Shown here: positions 48,789-62,813 of the stretch, piece by piece
Layout: each line of letters begins with the position of its first letter
Position numbering within the stretch: position 1 is the stretch's first letter
Assembly: GCA_009392295.1 (NCBI GenBank)
Contig: VFGW01000017.1
Coordinates: 123,933-187,932 of the forward strand
DNA: 64,000 nt
Source of the DNA: SAR202 cluster bacterium
GTDB taxonomy: Bacteria > Chloroflexota > Dehalococcoidia > Lucifugimonadales > GCA-2719675
Reading direction: 5' to 3'
Made by a program: the position numbers and the translations under genes
The notes under the pieces: model-generated
Databases searched by the model: none
The model's input: only the letters and a program-made list of their open reading frames with translations
Told to the model about the DNA's origin: nothing

Positions 48789-49727
48789 TTAGTTGAGTAT
48801 TTTTTGAAGATCTGAAAGGATTTCTTCCTTTGTAACAAATCCTTCGTATTTTGCAGCTATTTTCTTTTGATTTATGATGAAAGTCCATTCGGAAGAAGGT
48901 AAATTCCAATCAAGTACTACTTGAGATAATTTTTTATTTATTGGATTCCCTAATATTTTTTCAGGATTTTCATATAGCTCAACATGAATAAAAAACAAAT
49001 TCAAGTTATCTGATTTTTGTATTTGGTCTATCACTTCAGTTTGAGGGCCACACGAACGTTCTATGCAGTATCCAGGGCTAGAAAATGTTACAATCACTGG
49101 TTTGTTTGAATTCACTGCGTTATCAAGGGAATTTTGATATAAATTTGGAAAAATTTTTGATCCTGTTGATAATTCTTTTAAGGAATTTACATCGTTAATT
49201 GTTTTTGTTTTTGAAAGATTAGCATTTTTTCCAATTTTTGTTGTGTATTCAGCTTTTTTGACTTCGAATTCAATACTAGTACTTTGAGATATATTATTTT
49301 TTCCATCTATTATTTCAATCTGAGCATTCCAAATTCCAGGTTGGTCGAAATTGAAATTTGTGACATAAGATCCTTTAGGAAGGTTTTCCCATTGATAGAA
49401 ATTAGGTTTTTGTTTTTGATGGATTTTATTTTGTGTTTGTTTTTCCGTGAATGAAGTTGAAATATACACAGTTTCGTTTGTGACAAACCCAGTTTTAGAA
49501 ATTAAAAGGATAGCAAATCTTTGGTTTCCAACAGCTAAGTCTCTAGTAGATAAAATTGCTTTTAATCCATTTGAGGAATAATCACTTTCAATTTGAGGTG
49601 ACATATCTAATCTGTGAGGAACTGTCGGTGATTCTGAATTATTTATCCCACATGATATTAAAGCGTAAACAATTAAAATTATTATAAAATTGATATTAAT
49701 TAATTTTTGTATCAACATAAGCACCAA
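48789..49727 (-). CDS. Lipoprotein with C-terminal thioredoxin-like domain (CxxxxC)
   Basis: The 312 residues have a lipoprotein signal ending ISC (C26). A beta-sandwich-like middle region (about 45-157) resembles accessory domains that bind or present ligands. A thioredoxin-fold region (about 180-310) has VIVTFSSPGYCIERSCGP, whose cysteines C221 and C226 are spaced CxxxxC rather than CxxC. That spacing suggests metal binding or a non-standard redox pair. It overlaps the end of the upstream DipZ-like gene by 32 nt, so they are co-expressed. An internal ATG three codons in is an equally good start. Confidence 0.68.
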   Translation of the reverse strand: MVLMLIQKLININFIIILIVYALISCGINNSESPTVPHRLDMSPQIESDYSSNGLKAILSTRDLAVGNQRFAILLISKTGFVTNETVYISTSFTEKQTQNKIHQKQKPNFYQWENLPKGSYVTNFNFDQPGIWNAQIEIIDGKNNISQSTSIEFEVKKAEYTTKIGKNANLSKTKTINDVNSLKELSTGSKIFPNLYQNSLDNAVNSNKPVIVTFSSPGYCIERSCGPQTEVIDQIQKSDNLNLFFIHVELYENPEKILGNPINKKLSQVVLDWNLPSSEWTFIINQKKIAAKYEGFVTKEEILSDLQKILN

Positions 49728-50838
49728 AAGTTAAGGCAAAGAGAGAGAATTTTTCCTGAGAACTTATAGTCAATTCACCAGATTGTATTTCAGGTAAACT
49801 AATAATATTGTATAAATTTGCTTGATCAACATGAATATAAGATATACCATTTTCAGAGAATTTTATATCTGTTCCAGCTTGTGATTTAGTTAGATATTTG
49901 TTATTTAGCATTATTTCAATTTTTACAGATTCTTGATTTGATAATGGTTTAGTAACCATATTAACACTTCGGGCAAAAAATGGGATTGCTATGTAGCTTT
50001 CATGGATTGATTTAGAATTATTTGCTTTAGTAATATTTTGGGCTTCATTTAACCAATTTCCATGGAGATATATGAATTGATTCAAATGATTTCCAGGGTC
50101 TTTAAAATTGATTACTGAATCTTTTTGAGAATAATATTCATTATTGTATATATATGGTGGAATTTCTTTTTGTTGGGCTAAGGAAAAATTTCTTACATAT
50201 CCTGCGTAAAGTTCTCTGGTAACAGTTTGTAAATAATCATTTGAAAATGCTCTGTGATCTATAGGCTTGATTGGATAATTACCTATAGGGATATGACTGA
50301 TATTTTTTTTAGATTGAGATAATAATTCTCTAATTTTTTTTTCAGTTTGATTGTAATTACCTTCACCGAAGTATTGGAATTGGATTTTTCCGGTTTGATC
50401 AATTAAATATTTTGATGGCCAGTACATATTGTTAAAAGATCGCCAAGTTGAATATTCATTATCTAAACCTACAGCATATTCGATTTTGTTTGATTCAACG
50501 AATGTTTTAACATTATTAATATTTTTTTCAAATTCGAATTCTGGTGTATGAATTCCTATAACTACTAATCCTGAATCTTTATATTTTGAATGCCAGTCTT
50601 TTAGATAATCAAGTGTTCTAATACAGTTAATACAAGTATATGTCCAGAAATCTATTAGAACAACTTTACCTTTCAACGATTCCAATGTGAGGGGATTTGT
50701 ATTTATCCAGTGCGAAATATCAGATATTTTTTGGGAGTTTTGATTTAATTTCAATCTGTTATCAGATTGATTATCTTCACATCCGTTTAAAATGAAAATA
50801 ATTGTTATGCAAATCAAGATTGAAGTTAAATATTTCAT
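49696..50838 (-). CDS. Thioredoxin-like lipoprotein, DipZ C-terminal-type
   Basis: The 380-residue lipoprotein (lipobox LNGC, C20) has a redoxin domain with FWTYTCINC (C69, C72), VVIGIHTPEFEFE and YWPSKYLID. A beta-rich C-terminal domain follows (about 215-375). The same two domains form the extracytoplasmic part of actinobacterial DipZ, where they are fused to a CcdA-like membrane half; here that half is missing. CcdA at 44598 could supply electrons. Likely role: surface disulfide or peroxide chemistry. It is followed by an overlapping second thioredoxin-like lipoprotein gene. Confidence 0.8.
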   Translation of the reverse strand: MKYLTSILICITIIFILNGCEDNQSDNRLKLNQNSQKISDISHWINTNPLTLESLKGKVVLIDFWTYTCINCIRTLDYLKDWHSKYKDSGLVVIGIHTPEFEFEKNINNVKTFVESNKIEYAVGLDNEYSTWRSFNNMYWPSKYLIDQTGKIQFQYFGEGNYNQTEKKIRELLSQSKKNISHIPIGNYPIKPIDHRAFSNDYLQTVTRELYAGYVRNFSLAQQKEIPPYIYNNEYYSQKDSVINFKDPGNHLNQFIYLHGNWLNEAQNITKANNSKSIHESYIAIPFFARSVNMVTKPLSNQESVKIEIMLNNKYLTKSQAGTDIKFSENGISYIHVDQANLYNIISLPEIQSGELTISSQEKFSLFALTFGAYVDTKIN

Positions 50839-52840: not shown

Positions 52841-54103
52841 TTAATTAAATCTATTAAGAGAAAATGGTTTGGTATTGATTGTAGTTGGCTTTTCAGTAAT
52901 TATTTCAGCAACTGTTAATCCAGTGATGGGACCTAATGTCATTCCTAATACTCCGTGTCCTGATGCAAATGTTAAATTTTTAACTTTTGAAGATTTTTCG
53001 ATGATTGGTAATCCGTCTGGAGTAAGCGGTCGAAACCCGTACCAAATTTTTGATGTTGATATATGTTTGAAATATTCTTTTCGCAAATAATCTTGACCTG
53101 AATCAATAATTTTTTGAACCCTTTTTTTGTTTACAGAAAAATTTAATCCACTAAGTTCTAGTGTGCCTGCTAGTCTAAAAGATTTATCAGATAATGGATT
53201 TACGCCAACTCTTGCTTCAGCTAACATCATGGGAGTATCAATTTTATTTTCATCTTGAGGTATGGTGATGCTATATCCTTTTGCGGGTTGTATAGGCAGT
53301 TCACTTCCAATTATTTTGGAAAGTATAGGGCTCCATGCACCAGCCGCTATTATTATGTGGTCAGCAGAAAAATCTTTTAGTTTAGTTTGTATTTTTACGA
53401 TTTCATCAGATTGAATTTCAAATCCTGTAACTTTAGTATTTTCCAGAATTTCTCCACCATTAGATGTTACTATTTTTGATAATTCTTTTACAAATTTTTG
53501 AGGATTAATGTGTGCGTCACCTTTTTTAAAGAGTCCACCTGCAATATCAGGTTTAACATGAGGATATGTGTCACAGATTTCTTTTGTTGACATTTTTTTG
53601 ACTGATATTCCATTTTCTTCTAATAATTTGTATTTTTTGAAATATTGATTAAACATTTCTTTAGATGCAAATAAAGATAAGTTGCCGTTTTGAACGAAGT
53701 TACAATTTAAATTTTCTTCGTTAATTAATTTACTGTATTCATTAGCACTAGCAAGAGAAAAATCTATGCAAGTTTTCGTTACTTTTTTAATATTTTTTGG
53801 GTTGCAGTTTTTTGCAAAATTAAATAACCATCTAAATAATTTTAAATCGAATTTTGGTTGGATATATAGTGGGTTTTGCTTTTGAAATATTGATTTGAAT
53901 CCCATTTTAAGTGCTTCTGGGCTAGGTAAAGGAATACTATGAGATGGAACTATTAGACCTGAATTTCCTGATGAAGCCCCGCTACTGATTTGATTTTGTT
54001 CAAGAACAGTTACTTGAGCACCAAATTTTTGGAGATAATATGCTGAACAAACTCCTATAACACCTGCGCCAATAATGATTACATTAGGCTTGCTATTTTT
54101 CAT
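52841..54103 (-). CDS. FAD-dependent D-amino-acid dehydrogenase-like oxidoreductase
   Basis: The 420-residue DAO-family flavoprotein starts with the FAD loop IIGAGVIGVCSAYYL (GxGxxG at 12-17) followed by VTVLEQN. It has SSGNSGLIVPS, typical of DadA, and the C-terminal YGFRPLTPDGLPIIE and GHGVLGMTLGPITG. DadA oxidises D-amino acids to keto acids and passes electrons to the quinone pool. Glycine or sarcosine oxidation is an alternative within the family. It ends 2 nt from the enolase-superfamily gene and begins 3 nt after the permease fusion gene. Confidence 0.82.
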   Translation of the reverse strand: MKNSKPNVIIIGAGVIGVCSAYYLQKFGAQVTVLEQNQISSGASSGNSGLIVPSHSIPLPSPEALKMGFKSIFQKQNPLYIQPKFDLKLFRWLFNFAKNCNPKNIKKVTKTCIDFSLASANEYSKLINEENLNCNFVQNGNLSLFASKEMFNQYFKKYKLLEENGISVKKMSTKEICDTYPHVKPDIAGGLFKKGDAHINPQKFVKELSKIVTSNGGEILENTKVTGFEIQSDEIVKIQTKLKDFSADHIIIAAGAWSPILSKIIGSELPIQPAKGYSITIPQDENKIDTPMMLAEARVGVNPLSDKSFRLAGTLELSGLNFSVNKKRVQKIIDSGQDYLRKEYFKHISTSKIWYGFRPLTPDGLPIIEKSSKVKNLTFASGHGVLGMTLGPITGLTVAEIITEKPTTINTKPFSLNRFN

Positions 54104-54106
54104 GTA

Positions 54107-56701
54107 TTATTCTCTTGGTTCTGAAAGTGATAAATGTTGATTCACATCTATATTTTTGTATTCTGAAATTTTTCCATTTGGCCAAAAAACAGTTAGTGAT
54201 TTGATTGATTTTGATTCTCCAAGACCAAAGTGTATTTTTGAAGAACTTTGGCTTGCTTGACCTACATTAGTATTGAGGTTTTTTATTTGTGTTCCATTTT
54301 CGGTTGATATATGTATTTGTGCTCCAATAGCATTTTTATTAATTGATTTTCCTTCAAGTTTTAAATTCAACCAATTGTTTTGTGATTTACAACTATTGTG
54401 GAAGATTTTTAATGGTGCTTTGTATGGAGAAACTACTATGTCTAAGCAGCCATCTAGGTCGAGGTCGGAATAGGCAACTGCATTGATTTGTGTATTATCT
54501 GAAGGGATATTTTCTGTTAAGATTGGGCTAAATTTTTCAATATCTTCATTGATAGATAGTTGAATTGGTAATTGATTAGAGTTATTTGATTCTTGATCGT
54601 AATCAGGGGGGTTTTTTGAAATAAAAATATCATCATAACCATCGTTGTTATAGTCAAAATTAATGGCTCCCCATCCAATTTTAAAGTGCCTGAAAAATGT
54701 TGCGAGAATAGGATTGTTGATTAAATTTACTTCTCCAGTTTCAGATATAACAATATTATTTCCGAAGTAGATTTTCTTTACTCTTGATTTTTGGTCAAAC
54801 TCAGGACTCAATAGGAATTCTTTGTTGAATATAAGGTTAATTTGTTTTTGGTTATTTAAAGTTTGAATTTGATTGATCCAAATTAATTGATTTAAAGTAT
54901 TAGTATTAAGATTTTTGTAGATTATTACTACATCTAAGTTATTATCGGAATTTATATCTATTAAAGCAGGTTGGAGTATTTTTAGGTTATTATTTATATA
55001 ATTAGTGAGATCATTTTTGATTGAATTGAATTCTTCAAATTCATTGTTTTTAGTATTGATGAAAAGTTTGATTGAGTTGACTGGGTTATTGGTATGATTT
55101 GTGTAAATTAAATCTAACCAACCATCATTATTAATATCTCCCCACGCACATCCTATAGAATGGGAATTATCGTTTAGAATATTTGTTTTAGTTTTTGAGA
55201 ATGTTCCATCTCCGTTATTTTTAAATAGCGTATTTTGGCCTTGATTGGTTACAAAAATATCTTCATCTCCATCATTATCATAATCTGCCGCACACCCACC
55301 TGTTCCCAAAGCATTTATGTCATAAGTATTAGATGATTTTGTAACGTTTAAGAAAGATTTATCACCTTGGTTATGGAATAATTCATTTGGTCCCTCACCG
55401 TTAATTATATAAATATCTTCAAAACTATCGTTGTCAAAATCAAGTATGACAATTCCTGTATTGTTATAGTTTTGCAGGTTTGAATTAGTAGTGAAATTTA
55501 CTCCTGAAGTTTCTGTGATATCAGAATAAGTATTGATTTTTGATTGCTGCATCTGTATTTTTAGTGGCTGTGTATCTTTCCATAAAATTGTCCCGACACC
55601 AAGAACTATGAGTCCACCGAGAAAGCCAATAATCCAAGTGGAAATTGCAAATGATGCTATTGATTTTTTAGGGAGAATACCAGCTAATCCCCAAAATGTG
55701 ACAGGACCTGCTGCTGCAGCTGTAAAAAGTAATGTAGCTGCAGGTGCTGTACCCATTCCTAGCAGTAATAAAAGAGCAACTAAAGGTATTTCAAATAATA
55801 GGGGCACATTAATTAATATTCCAAAAGTTGCAGCGATTGCCAACCCAAGTAAATTATTTCCTAAATAAGTGTTAACAATTCCAGGGTTAAGCCATTGGAT
55901 TGCGAGACCGCTTGCAAATCCTGCTACTATCATGATTGGACCCATTCTAGTTAAATACCCTAAGGTGATTTTTGACCATTCCCTAAGAGTTTCTATGAAG
56001 ATTGTTTTCCAAGGTAGTATGGATTCCAGAATAGTATTATTTTCAACTATGTCAATTAAATCTTTTTGTTGGGGTTCTTTTTTGATAGTTAATGCAACTA
56101 ATGGCGGTATAGTTAATGCACCGACTACTGCTAATATAAGCCTACTTAAACCAAGTAGTGGATTAAATACAAAGAACACCATTGATAAAGCAGGAATATT
56201 CATAGTGGCAGAACCTTGCACCATTCCAAGAGCACCTTCAACTCCAGCCCTTCTATGAAATGCCGATGAAACTGGTACAATACAAGCTGAGCATAGGTTC
56301 ATTACAGGACCTGCAGCGGCCCCTTTTATAGTCCTTGAAAACCAGCTACCTGATTCGAAACCTCTAGTTGAATTTGGAGGGAAAATAAATGCTTCAGAAA
56401 GTCCTGCAATTACAAACGCAAAAGTCATTCCGACTGTAACTAGACGTAAATATGTTGTTGAAAATGTTACCCATTTAGAAATGAAAGATGTTCCTTCTTC
56501 TCTTTCTATACAAAATCCTTGAAAACATTGTTGTCCTGGTGATGTGACTGCACTTAAATCTTCTCCAACAATATCTAATTTTGGCAGTCGATTAAAGGAG
56601 AAAAATAATGCTAATATAATAATAAATAATAGGATTCCAATAAGTCTTTTTCTTCCATCATTAGTATTTGTTTTTAATTTTGATGAGATGTAGTTTTGCA
56701 T
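54107..56701 (-). CDS. Fusion protein: DUF318/ArsP-type permease + FG-GAP repeats + ASPIC/UnbV domain
   Basis: The 864 residues split in two. Residues 1-375 hold about ten hydrophobic spans and the permease pattern GPVMNLCSACIVPVSSAF (C137, C140) with NIPALSMVFF, resembling DUF318/ArsP_1 transporters. Residues about 412-770 contain FG-GAP/VCBS-type calcium-loop repeats such as DFDNDSFEDIYI, DYDNDGDEDIF, DINNDGWLDLIY and DLDLDGCLDIV. The last ~90 residues form an ASPIC/UnbV domain (NWLNLKLEG ... SLTVFWPNG). Both halves are in one unbroken frame. I do not know this combination. A membrane transporter with a ligand-binding or adhesive extracytoplasmic propeller is the simplest reading. It is followed 3 nt later by a DadA-like gene and preceded by a 48-residue membrane peptide. 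Confidence 0.8.
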   Translation of the reverse strand: MQNYISSKLKTNTNDGRKRLIGILLFIIILALFFSFNRLPKLDIVGEDLSAVTSPGQQCFQGFCIEREEGTSFISKWVTFSTTYLRLVTVGMTFAFVIAGLSEAFIFPPNSTRGFESGSWFSRTIKGAAAGPVMNLCSACIVPVSSAFHRRAGVEGALGMVQGSATMNIPALSMVFFVFNPLLGLSRLILAVVGALTIPPLVALTIKKEPQQKDLIDIVENNTILESILPWKTIFIETLREWSKITLGYLTRMGPIMIVAGFASGLAIQWLNPGIVNTYLGNNLLGLAIAATFGILINVPLLFEIPLVALLLLLGMGTAPAATLLFTAAAAGPVTFWGLAGILPKKSIASFAISTWIIGFLGGLIVLGVGTILWKDTQPLKIQMQQSKINTYSDITETSGVNFTTNSNLQNYNNTGIVILDFDNDSFEDIYIINGEGPNELFHNQGDKSFLNVTKSSNTYDINALGTGGCAADYDNDGDEDIFVTNQGQNTLFKNNGDGTFSKTKTNILNDNSHSIGCAWGDINNDGWLDLIYTNHTNNPVNSIKLFINTKNNEFEEFNSIKNDLTNYINNNLKILQPALIDINSDNNLDVVIIYKNLNTNTLNQLIWINQIQTLNNQKQINLIFNKEFLLSPEFDQKSRVKKIYFGNNIVISETGEVNLINNPILATFFRHFKIGWGAINFDYNNDGYDDIFISKNPPDYDQESNNSNQLPIQLSINEDIEKFSPILTENIPSDNTQINAVAYSDLDLDGCLDIVVSPYKAPLKIFHNSCKSQNNWLNLKLEGKSINKNAIGAQIHISTENGTQIKNLNTNVGQASQSSSKIHFGLGESKSIKSLTVFWPNGKISEYKNIDVNQHLSLSEPRE

Positions 56702-56712
56702 GGGAATAGATT

Positions 56713-56859
56713 TTATTTTTTTACCATTTTGATGATTAAAGATCTTATTTTGCTTCCGAAATCATCTTCATTATTTTTTGGAGGAATGATTATCCATAAA
56801 ATTAGCATTAATCCAAAAATTGTACTAGGTAAAACTACCTCTAACCACCATTCAGGCAT
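56713..56859 (-). CDS. 48-residue single-span membrane microprotein
   Basis: A complete 49-codon frame starts MPEWWLEVVLPSTIFGLMLI. It has one strongly hydrophobic helix (about 5-25), a PPKNNEDDFGSK hydrophilic stretch and a basic end. It stops 11 nt before the permease-fusion gene on the same strand, so it is likely its small partner. The ribosome-binding site (AGAAAGAT) is weak. No family is recognised. Confidence 0.55.
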   Translation of the reverse strand: MPEWWLEVVLPSTIFGLMLILWIIIPPKNNEDDFGSKIRSLIIKMVKK

Positions 56860-58347: not shown

Positions 58348-59451
58348 TTATATATTTTTAGATATCAAGTCACCCATCTTAGATGTTGAGACAGTAATAT
58401 CTTGATTCGAGGCAATATCAGCAGTTCTGTATCCTTGAGACAGGATTTTTTTCACAGATTTTTCTATTGCTTTAGATTCTTTAGATAGGCCAAAAGAAAA
58501 TTCAAGCATCATTGCTAAGCTTAAGATAGAGCCTATAGGATTAGCTTTATTTTGACCAGCAATATCAGGAGCACTACCATGAATTGGTTCATACAAGAAT
58601 GGGAATTTTGATTTATATTTAGACTTGTTGTTTGAATTTAAATTAGAGATGCTGGCTGAAGGCAACATACCTAATGAGCTAGAGATTATTGCTGCCTCAT
58701 CTGAAATAATATCTCCAAAAGTGTTTTCAGATACTACTACATCAAATGATTTTGGTTGGGAAATTAATTTCATTGCCATGTTGTCAACAAGAATGTGTTC
58801 AAGTTCAACTTCAGGATAATGATTGCTAATTTTTATAGCTAATTCTCTCCATAATCTAGAAGATTCCAGGACATTAAATTTATCTACTGAAGTTAGTTTT
58901 TTACGTCTTTGTTGAGCTAATTGAAATCCTACATTTAGAATTCTTTCTATTTCTTTTTCAGTATATTTTAGAGTGTCAATTCCTCGTTGTCCTGTAGAAG
59001 TGTTCCATCTTTTTTTTGGTTTTGCAAAATATAGACCACCAGTGAGTTCTCGTACAATTAATATGTCTACGCCTCTAATATATTTTGGTTTGATAGGACT
59101 TGAATTAATTAATGAAGGAAAAACTTTTACAGGTCTTAAATTTGCAAATGTTTTTAATTTTTTTCTGAGTGCTAAAATTCCTCCTTCAGGGCGTACATTA
59201 AATGTGTTATTATCCCACTTTGGACCACCTACAGCACCAAAAAGTATTGCATCTGATTTTTCACACAAAATTTCTGTTTTTTGTGGGAAAGGGTTGCCTG
59301 TGCTATCTATAGCTGTTCCACCAATGAGTCCAAATTCTATATCAAAAATATGATTAAATTTTTCTCCAATAATATTTAGACATTTGATAGATTCAGAAGT
59401 GACCTCAGGTCCAACTCCATCTCCTTGTAGGATAGCTATTTTATATGCCAT
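58348..59451 (-). CDS. leuB: 3-isopropylmalate dehydrogenase
   Basis: The 367-residue LeuB starts MAYKIAILQGDGVGPEV and contains GGPKWDN, the substrate-arginine region, GGLYFAKPKK and the metal site in FGDIISDEAA. It oxidises 3-isopropylmalate in leucine synthesis. The open frame continues upstream, but that part is the tRNA-Leu gene read as protein. AAGGAA 10 nt before ATG 59451 fixes the real start. Confidence 0.95.
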   Translation of the reverse strand: MAYKIAILQGDGVGPEVTSESIKCLNIIGEKFNHIFDIEFGLIGGTAIDSTGNPFPQKTEILCEKSDAILFGAVGGPKWDNNTFNVRPEGGILALRKKLKTFANLRPVKVFPSLINSSPIKPKYIRGVDILIVRELTGGLYFAKPKKRWNTSTGQRGIDTLKYTEKEIERILNVGFQLAQQRRKKLTSVDKFNVLESSRLWRELAIKISNHYPEVELEHILVDNMAMKLISQPKSFDVVVSENTFGDIISDEAAIISSSLGMLPSASISNLNSNNKSKYKSKFPFLYEPIHGSAPDIAGQNKANPIGSILSLAMMLEFSFGLSKESKAIEKSVKKILSQGYRTADIASNQDITVSTSKMGDLISKNI

Positions 59452-59479
59452 TTTTTCAATATTCCTTAATAATAAGATA

Positions 59480-59565
59480 TGGTGGGGAAGGGGGGACTCG
59501 AACCCCCACGCCATTATGACACATGATCCTAAATCATGCTCGTCTACCAATTCCGACACTTCCCC
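59480..59565 (-). tRNA. tRNA-Leu (anticodon UAG, CCA encoded)
   Basis: On the minus strand an 86-nt cloverleaf has acceptor stem GGGGAAG/CTTCCCC, D-loop GGAATTGGTAGAC, anticodon stem-loop CATGA-TTTAGGA-TCATG with anticodon TAG, a long class II variable arm and T-loop GGTTCGAGTCCC. It ends in ACCA. It reads CUA and probably other CUN leucine codons. It lies 28 nt upstream of leuB and may share its transcript. Confidence 0.96.
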
Positions 59566-59585: not shown

Positions 59586-59615
59586 ATTATACCTTAGCTA
59601 AGCATTTTGATTCAC
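59586..59615 (-). promoter_or_regulatory. Promoter of tRNA-Leu (and probably leuB)
   Basis: On the minus strand a perfect -10 TATAAT (complement of 59586-59591) lies about 20 nt before the tRNA 5' end. A weak -35 GTGAAT (complement of 59610-59615) is 18 nt further up. Confidence 0.5.
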
Positions 59616-59675
59616 ATAATAAAATCAAAAAAATCAAAGAAATTTTATTTCAACAAATTATTTAGAGGTGTTTAT

Positions 59676-62600
59676 ATTAATACGGATAAATTTTTAAAAG
59701 ATATTTTATACTACAGATGTATTGGTCCGTTTCGTGGAGGTCGGGTTGTTGCTGTAGTTGGCGATCCTAAGGATGCAAATATATTTTATTTTGGAGCTTG
59801 TGCTGGTGGTGTTTGGAAAACGTATGATGGAGGCTTGTTTTGGGAAAATATTTCAGATAATTATTTTAATTCGGCATCTATTGGTGCGATAGCAGTTTCT
59901 GATTCAAATCCTAATATAATTTATGTTGGTACAGGGGAAGCATGTATTAGGGGAAATGTGACTACTGGTGACGGTGTATATAAATCAACAGATGCTGGCT
60001 TGACTTGGGAGAATATTGGATTAGAAAAAACCCGTCATATTTCTAGGATTCGTATTCACCCTACAAATCCTGACTTGGTATATGTTGCTGCGTTTGGAGA
60101 TGCTTTTGGACCAAATGAAGAGAGAGGTATATTTCGTTCTTCTGATGGTGGTCAGAATTGGGAAAAAATTTTATATAATTCACCGGATAGTGGCGCATCT
60201 GATCTTTCAATTGATTCAAATGATCCCAATATCTTACTTGCATGTTTATGGGAAGGTAGGCGTAGTTTTTGGGAAATGAAAAGTGGTGGAAATTATAGCG
60301 GATTATATAGATCAATTGACGGAGGTGATTCTTGGATTGAAATTTCACAAAAATCAGATCTGCCAAAGGGTGTTAAAGGTAGAATGGGGGTATCAATATC
60401 TCCTGCTAAACCTGGTAGGGTGTGGACTTTGATAGAATCTGAATTTGGGGGATTATTTCGTTCTGAAGATTATGGAGAAACTTGGGAAAAAATTAATCAA
60501 GACAAAGATATTAGAGACAGGCCTTGGTATTATACACATGTTTTTGCTGATCCAAGTGATGAAGAAACAGTTTGGGTTTTAGCAAATAAAGCTTGGAAAT
60601 CTATTGATGGGGGAAAAACTTTTACAGAAGTAGTAACACCACATGTAGACAATCATGACATTTGGATTGATTCTAATAATTCTCAGAGAATAATTGAAGG
60701 TAATGATGGAGGAGCTTGTATTTCATATAACGGAGGTGAATCTTGGTCTTCATTGTACAATCAACCAACCTCTCAGTTTTATTTTCTTGATACTGATAAT
60801 CAGTTTCCTTACAGAGTCTACGGGACTCAACAGGATAATAGTGCTGTAAGCGTTCCAAGTATGTCTGCTAAAGGTTCAATTCGCTGGGATGATTGTTTTA
60901 CTGTTGGACTATCTGAGAGTGGGAAAATTGCCGTTAATCCAAATAACCCTAATATTGTCTATTCCTCTTATCCAGGTGGTGCTTTACAGAGATATGATCG
61001 TGAAACAGATCAAGTGAGATTAATTTCTGTTTGGCCTGAATATGAACAAAATACTCCACCTGAAAAATTTAAATATCGGTTCGCTTGGGAATTTCCAATC
61101 ATAATATCTGTTCATGATTCTAAAACGCTTTATGTTTCTTCAAATTTTGTTTTTAAATCAACAAATGAAGGTGAAAGTTGGGAAATAATTAGTCCAGATT
61201 TAACAAGAAATGATACTTCTAAGCAACAATTATCAGGGCCAATAACTTCGGAAGGAGTTTGGGCGGAAGTTTATGGCACTGTTTATGCATTGGCTGAGTC
61301 CAAATTTGATTCAAAAATTCTTTGGTCGGGTACAGATGATGGTCTTATTCATATTACATATGATGGAGGTAAAACTTGGAAAGATATTACGCCCAATGAC
61401 TTGCCTGAATATTCAATGATTTCATGTATTGAAACATCTAATTATAAGCCAGGAATTGCATATGTTGTTGCTTCAAGATATAAACTTGCTGACAATGTTT
61501 CAATTGTATATAAAACTGAAGATTTTGGAAAGAATTGGCATAAGTTGACCAATGGTATTCCTTCTGACGAAGTAACTAGAGTTCTTCGAGAAGATTCTGA
61601 GGATTCAGAAATATTGTTTTTAGGTACTGAAAAAGGCATATACATTTCTTTTGATCAAGGAAGTTCATTTGAAACACTTCAATTAAATTTACCAGTTGTA
61701 CCTGTTTATGATATTAAAATTAAAAATGATGAATTGATTGTCGCAACACATGGTAGATCATTTTGGATTTTAGAAGGTATTAATTTGTTAAGACAATTGA
61801 GGGTTGGAATTAACAAAGATAAGCCATTTTTATTTAAATCATCTGATAAGATACGTACAGTTCAACAGCTCGGAGGTGGTTTGTCTGATATTAATACTGA
61901 AAGTTTTGGGAAGAGATATTCGTCAAAAATTTTTGGAGAACCAGCTACATATATCGATAAAAAATTAAATTCGGGAGAGATTATTCAGGTTTATTTAGAT
62001 GCAGGTCAAAATCCGCAGGAAGGCTTAAGTATAATTTATTATGTGCCTGAAAATTTTGAGTCAGAACTGTCTATATCGATTATTGATTCTTCAAATCATG
62101 TAATACGAATTTTTAATACAGAAAATACAAAAACATTTTCCTTAAAACCAGGGTTAAATCGAATTGTTTGGGATTTGAAAAATGAAGAAATTCCTGAATT
62201 GCCAGACATTCCAGGAGGTCAAAGTCCTTTTATTGCGAAGGAGACTTCAATTTTGTTAATTCCAGGGACATATAATATTAGATTGAATGTAGGAGATGAA
62301 TATTTTTATGAACAAAGCTTTAATTTTATACAAGATCCTAGGTCCAAAGTTTCTTTAGATGATTTAGTTTTGCAATATGACCTTCAGAAACAGATACAAG
62401 AAAAATATTTAGAAATTTTTCACAAGGTAAAGTGGTTTAGAAAAATTCGTGATGAACTTAGGCAAGTTGACGTGAAACAGATTAGTCAATACAAAGAAAA
62501 TAACTTTCAAGAATCTTTAGATTTAATATTACTAAAATTATCAGAAATTGAGAATGAAATAGTGCCTTTCAAATCATATTATCAGACTCCTCCTGTAGGT

Positions 62601-62813
62601 ATTCCTGTGGGGATATATGGAAAATATAAAGAATTAAAAGGTGGAGTTTCTGGAGGAGATTATCGTCCTACTCAGCAATCGTACGAATTGTTTGAAGACT
62701 TAAATTTGAGACTAGAAGAAAAATTTTTAGAGATTGATAACATCATTAAAAATGATATATTTGGAATATTTAAGATATTGAAATATATAGATATTTCAGA
62801 TACTACTATATAA
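59676..62813 (+). CDS. Large BNR/Asp-box repeat protein (VPS10/sialidase-like beta-propellers), probable ATT start
   Basis: About 1045 residues. At least ten Asp-box repeats (SxDxGxxW), such as STDAGLTWENI, SSDGGQNWEKI, SIDGGDSWIEI and STNEGESWEII, form tandem beta-propellers (to about residue 700). A C-terminal domain with a helical segment (about 900-1040) follows. The front RCIGPFRGGRVVAVVGDP is the start signature of a family abundant in marine bacteria and often named glycosyl hydrolase without proof. No signal peptide is apparent. No ATG precedes the fold. AGAGGTG at 59664-59670 is 5 nt before an ATT at 59676, my preferred start; the only in-frame TTG (59607) has no ribosome-binding site. 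Confidence 0.72.
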   Translation: MNTDKFLKDILYYRCIGPFRGGRVVAVVGDPKDANIFYFGACAGGVWKTYDGGLFWENISDNYFNSASIGAIAVSDSNPNIIYVGTGEACIRGNVTTGDGVYKSTDAGLTWENIGLEKTRHISRIRIHPTNPDLVYVAAFGDAFGPNEERGIFRSSDGGQNWEKILYNSPDSGASDLSIDSNDPNILLACLWEGRRSFWEMKSGGNYSGLYRSIDGGDSWIEISQKSDLPKGVKGRMGVSISPAKPGRVWTLIESEFGGLFRSEDYGETWEKINQDKDIRDRPWYYTHVFADPSDEETVWVLANKAWKSIDGGKTFTEVVTPHVDNHDIWIDSNNSQRIIEGNDGGACISYNGGESWSSLYNQPTSQFYFLDTDNQFPYRVYGTQQDNSAVSVPSMSAKGSIRWDDCFTVGLSESGKIAVNPNNPNIVYSSYPGGALQRYDRETDQVRLISVWPEYEQNTPPEKFKYRFAWEFPIIISVHDSKTLYVSSNFVFKSTNEGESWEIISPDLTRNDTSKQQLSGPITSEGVWAEVYGTVYALAESKFDSKILWSGTDDGLIHITYDGGKTWKDITPNDLPEYSMISCIETSNYKPGIAYVVASRYKLADNVSIVYKTEDFGKNWHKLTNGIPSDEVTRVLREDSEDSEILFLGTEKGIYISFDQGSSFETLQLNLPVVPVYDIKIKNDELIVATHGRSFWILEGINLLRQLRVGINKDKPFLFKSSDKIRTVQQLGGGLSDINTESFGKRYSSKIFGEPATYIDKKLNSGEIIQVYLDAGQNPQEGLSIIYYVPENFESELSISIIDSSNHVIRIFNTENTKTFSLKPGLNRIVWDLKNEEIPELPDIPGGQSPFIAKETSILLIPGTYNIRLNVGDEYFYEQSFNFIQDPRSKVSLDDLVLQYDLQKQIQEKYLEIFHKVKWFRKIRDELRQVDVKQISQYKENNFQESLDLILLKLSEIENEIVPFKSYYQTPPVGIPVGIYGKYKELKGGVSGGDYRPTQQSYELFEDLNLRLEEKFLEIDNIIKNDIFGIFKILKYIDISDTTI

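Follow-up and report, generated by a model that had tools for sequence, protein, structure and literature searches.

What is a membrane permease doing in the same reading frame as a calcium-type beta-propeller? The question is raised by a 64,000-nucleotide stretch of a SAR202 cluster bacterium (contig VFGW01000017.1, positions 123,933 to 187,932; hereafter the window), whose host genome (G000) comprises 1.45 Mb in 25 contigs and is 90.6% complete. A first-pass annotation of the window had described a permease running without a stop into FG-GAP repeats and an UnbV domain in one 864-residue protein, and had singled this fusion out as a candidate undescribed system. We find that the fusion is no isolated curiosity but belongs to a modular family. 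Among the papers listed by a search of the open-licence literature, no title or abstract opening concerned a permease-propeller fusion, and on that basis the family is apparently undescribed; the fusion itself is not unique but one state of a widespread family. We propose tentatively, with a probability of about 0.4, that the protein moves a thiol-binding metal or metalloid across the membrane and that its outer cap binds the cargo or a partner. What the sequences themselves show is the fusion, its recurrence, its conserved Cys pairs, a conserved microprotein upstream of some family members, and cap exchange between relatives. The features of the locus on which the argument turns are as follows.

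54107..56701, minus strand: fused permease-propeller-UnbV gene, 864 amino acids (aa), from the open reading frame (ORF) list, Pfam and full-length fused homologues
55577..56701, minus strand: permease half, residues 1-375, with an extra N-terminal span and two predicted hairpin-plus-broken-helix halves
56510..56527, minus strand: CFQGFC motif, residues 59-64, within the loop that follows the first span and is predicted to lie outside the cytoplasm
56249..56344, minus strand: predicted re-entrant hairpin 1, residues 120-151, with CSAC (137-140; 56282-56293) at its break
55763..55852, minus strand: predicted re-entrant hairpin 2, residues 284-313, with INVP (297-300; 55802-55813) at its break
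55532..55576, minus strand: junction or linker, residues 376-390, from low model confidence and the spacing in homologues
54377..55531, minus strand: beta-propeller of the CRTAC1 type, residues 391-775; it has six calcium-type loops and two Cys pairs (470/518, 752/771)
54131..54331, minus strand: UnbV/ASPIC domain, residues 791-857 (PF07593, 64.7 bits)
56713..56859, minus strand: one-span microprotein, 48 aa (MPEWWLE...), starting 158 nt upstream of the permease start codon

The ORF and Pfam agree on the chain that the first-pass annotation described, and add the strand that it did not give: the frame begins at an ATG on the minus strand and is uninterrupted. A domain search of the full protein placed ArsP_1 (PF03773) on residues 89-366 at 48.9 bits, against a curated cut-off of 32.3, so that the membrane region belongs to this permease superfamily. 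FG-GAP_3 (115.1 bits, four stretches) and FG-GAP (48.1 bits) also exceeded their cut-offs, as did UnbV_ASPIC (cut-off 23.4), which assigns the remainder to the CRTAC1/ASPIC-UnbV propeller family; the propeller part has the CRTAC1 fold as well. Were the chain an assembly or annotation artefact, two genes would have been joined by a missed stop or frameshift, and the solo and split versions found in other genomes (L038, L041) could be read in that way. Independent assemblies refute this. A same-genus genome (G001) encodes the full-length fusion at 75% identity across residues 1-862 with zero internal stops, a second fused homologue (P0002, 42 member sequences) is 80% identical, and the fusion also occurs in two genomes of another class (G132 and G303). 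Our homologue search scored 7,995 candidates and retained 4,158 proteins at E ≤ 1e-3; both the permease and the propeller profiles matched in 120/120 of the best 120 of these, which were ranked by full-length score, a ranking that favours two-domain proteins. The chance of an artefact is therefore negligible. The two profile matches lie 11-193 residues apart in these 120 homologues (median 28), and the predicted local distance difference test score (pLDDT) of the structure model falls below 50 at residues 377-389 of the junction.

Predicted architecture and conserved cysteines

The ten or so hydrophobic spans originally counted in the permease half are better read as seven crossings and two re-entrant hairpins, judging from the helices of our models and a comparison with ArsB; the helix breaks of both hairpins appear in both structure models. 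The CxxC reported at residues 137-140 is present and reads CSAC. Among the 120 homologues, C137 and C140 are kept in every one (120/120), always in the form C[SA]AC, while [IL]NVP is kept in 118 and both Cys of the CxQGxC loop in 119. Exactly four Cys occur in 114 of the 120 permease halves and in 103 of the 120 propeller parts. In a 91-sequence alignment, C137, S138, A139, C140, N298 and P300 are invariant. The best structural matches of the permease model were ArsB and other elevator carriers of the ion-transporter superfamily (DASS, TRAP, AbgT); the permease half had no Protein Data Bank sequence match to any of these four.

A DNA pattern for CxQGxC[IV] matched twice in the whole host genome, at the window gene and at a second family member (L102), and its reversed pattern had 0 matches. 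Across eight further genomes, picked for carrying the permease, it matched 14 times, each time in a family gene by coordinates, compared with 3 matches for the reversed pattern. One of the 14 is a propeller gene, L090; the motif therefore travels with the carrier and, in this one instance, with the cap. This gene (L090:1702-4017, minus strand, genome G023) encodes a lipoprotein-like propeller with its own CVQGVC; the permease of that genome is solo, and the two are possible partners in trans.

At least five calcium-loop repeats had been expected in the propeller, and we found six calcium-type loops, starting at residues 421, 473, 522, 582, 683 and 746, with the strict form Dx[DN]xDG at 473, 522, 683 and 746. 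The indirect observations that bear on location, namely the Cys pairs, the loop charges and the exported relatives, suggest that the propeller and UnbV cap probably lie outside the cell, in support of the earlier proposal of an extracytoplasmic module fused to a permease, an arrangement that recurs in other genomes. CRTAC1 itself is secreted, and most stand-alone relatives of the propeller are tethered via a signal peptide or lipobox.

The 48-residue partner suggested upstream is a genuine gene. In G001, 41/48 of its residues are identical, with 18 changed codons (10 silent, 8 not; 7/3/13 changes by codon position). We examined 52 genes for a permease or permease-like protein with a profile built from eight copies: it matched upstream of 15, including 8 that had served as seeds, and the other 37 genes had no match. 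No further match above threshold was found among 12,495 frames of the same loci. On these results we rejected a chance origin. The microprotein stop lies between 98 nt before and 17 nt past the called permease start, overlapping that start nine times. The microprotein accompanies fused permeases, solo permeases and one protein lacking the predicted site (L170), and the profile search did not find it at L043, L102, L082 or L041, nor in the clade containing the other class. Its presence requires 6 changes on the permease tree. As judged from its sequence, the microprotein is a conserved partner for part of the family.

Fused, split, solo and site-less relatives

At E ≤ 1e-10, the permease was found in 62/250 genomes of the order and in 22/95 of the good ones, some copies being partial or degenerate. 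At E ≤ 1e-20 it was present in 3/301 genomes sampled across the phylum, of which two are from another class and have four copies each. A peptide-pattern search of contigs returned 3 loci only. Within the 72 stretches that we examined, 50 ORFs scored above 100 bits with the permease profile, 40 with a propeller and 10 without. By regular expression, 36 of the 40 contain CxQGxC, CSAC and INVP, two lack INVP only, and two lack both CSAC and INVP. The 10 propeller-less ORFs, left after L110 and L113 (29.4 and 34.5 bits) were removed from 12, are five solo permeases of one family (f23), one solo permease in G475, and L041, L168, L180 and L170; the propeller-only ORFs number 26 after removal of L102 and L082 from 28. 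Solo permeases L038 and L163-L167 keep both Cys pairs without a cap. In L041 the two parts are encoded by separate genes, which overlap by 11 bases if the propeller begins at its TTG, in a stretch that contains masked bases; the L041 permease is sister to a fused protein on the permease tree (support 100/98). The same permease chassis is fused to DUF3179 (277 bits) in L168:4905-7079 (plus strand), with CAAC instead of CSAC, and is followed in L180:4775-7144 (plus strand) by repeats that resemble a right-handed beta-helix and matched no Pfam family. The L170 permease ends at the contig end. In L171, a PD40 propeller and a TIG domain precede the CRTAC part, and L172 has an identical length and layout.

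Trees of the two parts provide further evidence of exchange. In one supported clade (97/85) of the permease tree, which is unrooted and drawn at its midpoint, the window genus and L025/L026/L176/L177 bear propellers from distant parts of the propeller tree. On the propeller tree, a quick tree that excludes the FG-GAP protein L031 6989-8833, the fused or stand-alone label needs 17 changes, at least 8 of them forced by starred branches; shuffled labels needed a mean of 20.3 changes, and 27/500 shuffles were as low as 17. These label changes, with the distant caps within one permease clade, indicate that propellers have passed between permeases and stand-alone anchors. The cap thus looks like an interchangeable module: the carrier is conserved, whereas its cap may be replaced by another, encoded as a separate gene or absent.

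Both CSAC and INVP have been lost from five members of the family, which come from four genomes: L102, L082, two in L043, and L170. All five keep a C[FL]QG[FGY]C loop, and four retain the propeller; the fifth, L170, is the one that stops at the contig end. In both L043 proteins (G002), the hairpin-1 segment is gone and LGAWS or VGAWP replaces INVPL, while L170 (G542) has lost both the hairpin-1 site and INVP and still scores 283.9 bits with the permease profile. That profile gave 117.7 and 107.2 bits for the L043 proteins, 21.9 for L082 and 15.1 for L102, compared with ≤ 2.5 in 100 shuffles. L102 (G000) and its orthologue L082 (G001) are more diverged. The former is the second family member of the host genome:

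L102:2756-5419, minus strand: contig 9, about 70.8-73.4 kb; degenerate permease half with ECFQGGC, then an intact propeller and UnbV

Two other permeases were observed in the survey. L053 (G016:C21) encodes an ArsP_1 permease of the canonical CSC type; the loop that joins its two halves is very rich in Cys and may be a linker that binds metal. At G008:C8:64954-65911, two half-size ArsP_1 matches adjoin one another, in open frames of 167 aa and 200 aa; they look like a permease split in half.

Neighbouring genes

Downstream of the fusion, the following genes were considered.

52841..54103, minus strand: DadA-like flavin adenine dinucleotide (FAD) amino-acid dehydrogenase, 3 nt downstream of the fusion (PF01266, 227.8 bits)
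49696..50838, minus strand: ResA/TlpA-like thioredoxin with a C-terminal PF17991 domain, 3.3 kb downstream (PF00578, PF17991), a possible thiol partner
48789..49727, minus strand: putative lipoprotein, thioredoxin-like by reading of its sequence, paired with the ResA/TlpA-like gene

The DadA-like gene is placed as the first-pass annotation described, but its suggested membership in the system did not hold. Among the 72 stretches, a close relative adjoins the fusion only in the same-genus genome (locus L027, 92% identity), and we therefore rejected it as a system part; it is probably a co-transcribed neighbour. Our neighbour survey covered 129 of 168 neighbour ORFs (39 were dropped, mostly from near-duplicate loci) and the 25 commonest of 137 families. 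DAO-domain proteins were encoded by 3/129 of these ORFs, one of the 3 being from the window genus. Peptide-type ATP-binding cassette (ABC) transporters were well represented (BPD_transp_1 in 14/129 and SBP_bac_5 in 8/129), as were catabolic enzymes. There is no ars gene among the flanking genes of the window locus, and the gene neighbourhood yielded no substrate.

The C-terminal domain of the ResA/TlpA-like protein is presumably DipZ-type; the product of 48789-49727 matched no Pfam or NCBIfam family. This pair is arranged alike in L027 and L036, and in the latter (G022) lies ~4 kb from the fused gene. A ResA-like gene occurs within 10 kb of a family gene in 4/12 genomes that have both (G000, G003, G022 and G006), where we estimate ~0.46 to be expected (P 0.0013, with the 10-kb limit set after the window had been viewed); in G006 it adjoins a stand-alone propeller.

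Elsewhere in the window, a tRNA-Leu gene (59480-59565, minus strand) overlaps the 5' end of a leuB-like ORF with listed coordinates 58348-59559; leuB must therefore begin at a more internal start codon. The plus-strand gene at 59607-62813 encodes a 1068-aa Sortilin/VPS10-BNR propeller protein, and a similar protein is found near the fusion in L027 and L033.

Possible functions and known systems

In the mechanism that we propose, the membrane half would be a two-hairpin elevator-type carrier like ArsB, with its N-terminus inside and its C-terminus outside, and with a predicted site formed where the two hairpin tips meet the substrate, by CSAC in hairpin 1 and INVP in hairpin 2. The CSAC cysteines may bind soft metals, in analogy to the C(S/T)C motif of ArsP, which PMC4435449 gives as common to all 49 surveyed homologues, and to the UxC motif that SO_0444-family exporters have in their selenoprotein form (PMC13188914). 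The last span and the disulfide-type CxQGxC loop would keep the calcium-type propeller at the outer mouth, where it could capture, hold or hand over cargo, with the one-span microprotein as a putative accessory subunit. As the carrier is conserved and its cap is exchanged, separated or missing among relatives, we propose that the cap sets the partner or ligand and the carrier sets the chemistry. Export is taken as the default direction, by analogy. We prefer a soft-metal substrate because a near-invariant CxxC lies at the predicted site and the superfamily has metal(loid) links, stated for ArsP in a passage of PMC4435449 and for SO_0444 in one of PMC3219624.

Several results weigh against soft-metal transport. 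No metal or arsenic gene was found among 20 proteins (18 neighbours, the split propeller of L041 and one FG-GAP protein) or in the 25 commonest neighbour families. Three or four copies are present in some genomes, and there are surviving paralogues that lack the CxxC, neither of which sits well with simple metal resistance. The weak match to the SO_0444 family (NF033936) reached 17.8 bits against a cut-off of 300, and we rejected membership. As to the fold, the permease match is under the level that the tool deems safe for helical proteins, Foldseek alone returned nothing for the permease model at E ≤ 0.001 (which is no proof of a new fold), and the two permease halves gave no significant repeat alignment (hhalign P 0.13). 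The loop at 203-247, predicted inside, is net acidic (K+R 5.37 vs D+E 7.98), and the long outer loop at 37-72 retains K+R 3.28 vs D+E 6.38. The predicted template modelling score (pTM) of the whole-protein model is 0.60, so the model does not give the placement of the cap relative to the carrier.

An unlikely alternative, though one with several observations behind it, is a transmembrane thiol-redox shuttle, in which the hairpin CxxC is reduced on the cytoplasmic side, moves outward and there reduces one of three acceptors: the disulfide of CxQGxC, the cap or a periplasmic thioredoxin. It would thus stand in for CcdA/DsbD. The spacing of CxxC is the one typical of redox sites, the fusion protein has four Cys pairs, and the Cys counts of both halves and the nearby ResA/TlpA-like genes fit such a role; yet solo permeases retain both Cys pairs without a cap, the ResA-like gene of G003 lies ~9 kb off with a stop in frame, and ResA-like genes occur in 25/40 genomes, with and without the permease, and are absent from several permease genomes. 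DsbD_TM (PF02683) had no match in the fusion protein (Pfam, E ≤ 1), nor in the whole host genome or G001 (E ≤ 0.001), and at the latter threshold was rarer in genomes of the order with the permease (9/62) than in those without (60/188; p 0.008), as in a smaller set (3/14 vs 16/26; p 0.022). With curated cut-offs the difference shrank to 5/62 vs 26/188 (p 0.27), so the anti-association holds with weak matches only. Moreover, the two sets share genomes, and genomes are not independent samples. It is improbable, too, that the permease half is a retired transporter that only tethers a propeller receptor at the cell surface. The five site-less proteins, with their CxQGxC loops and four propellers, and the movement of propellers between anchors would suit this, but in the window protein and most of the relatives examined, few residues are as conserved as those of the site, six of them being invariant in the 91-sequence alignment, and solo permeases without any cap occur in five f23 genomes and in G475. 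Neither would be expected of a pure anchor. We give still less credence to an importer whose substrate is organic or an oxyanion and whose propeller captures it, much as in TRAP or solute-binding-protein systems. The carriers of the same fold include DASS and TRAP, and one would sooner expect an outer binding domain in an uptake system than in an exporter; the peptide-type ABC transporters and catabolic enzymes among the neighbours point the same way, but BPD_transp_1 and SBP_bac_5 are abundant gene classes whose counts come without a background rate, and a CxxC at the predicted site would be odd for a carboxylate or oxyanion carrier.

Beyond soft-metal transport, a broader and speculative idea, which we doubt, is that the family forms a modular surface machine: a CxxC elevator carrier, in part with the microprotein, that takes exchangeable caps (several CRTAC propellers, an added PD40 propeller, DUF3179, a beta-helix) and can be disarmed, which leaves a receptor in the shape of a transporter. 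Taken furthest, this idea would make the CxxC hairpin an elevator-borne thiol shuttle that powers the cap and replaces DsbD/CcdA; were the redox reading true, it would be a new route for moving reducing power through the membrane. To our knowledge, the role of CRTAC1-like propellers in bacteria is known to nobody, and a conserved carrier partner offers a handle on the function of one branch of them. Fused, split, solo, cap-swapped and site-less versions within one bacterial order are natural experiments, through which the roles of the cap, the CxxC site, the CxQGxC loop and the microprotein could be separated with few constructs.

Comparison with known systems places the fusion among several families. 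It shares with ArsP the Pfam family and a Cys motif in the same place, the first Cys being six residues ahead of a Pro, and to this extent the original description as ArsP-like stands. It is not a normal ArsP, however: C(S/T)C is replaced by CSAC here and C[SA]AC in the homologues, there are an extra N-terminal span with the CxQGxC loop and a propeller cap, and no ars gene adjoins it, so that we rejected ArsP proper. The likeness to SO_0444-family Cu/Zn efflux proteins consists of the weak match at residues 93-212 (E 0.0015) and a metal-linked Cys motif in a membrane permease. With ArsB, DASS, TRAP and AbgT, the fusion would share two hairpins with adjoining broken helices and a predicted outside C-terminus; it differs in having three predicted crossings per half plus the extra N-terminal span, compared with five per half in ArsB, and in the CxxC at hairpin 1 and the propeller cap, which we know from no other member of the ion-transporter superfamily. 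Its propeller differs from most stand-alone CRTAC1/ASPIC-UnbV relatives in being tethered to a carrier rather than by a signal peptide or lipobox. The CcdA/DsbD/DipZ proteins resemble it in their membrane Cys pair and nearby thioredoxin-like genes, but CcdA and DsbD have one Cys in each half, whereas both Cys of the CxxC in the fusion lie in one predicted hairpin.
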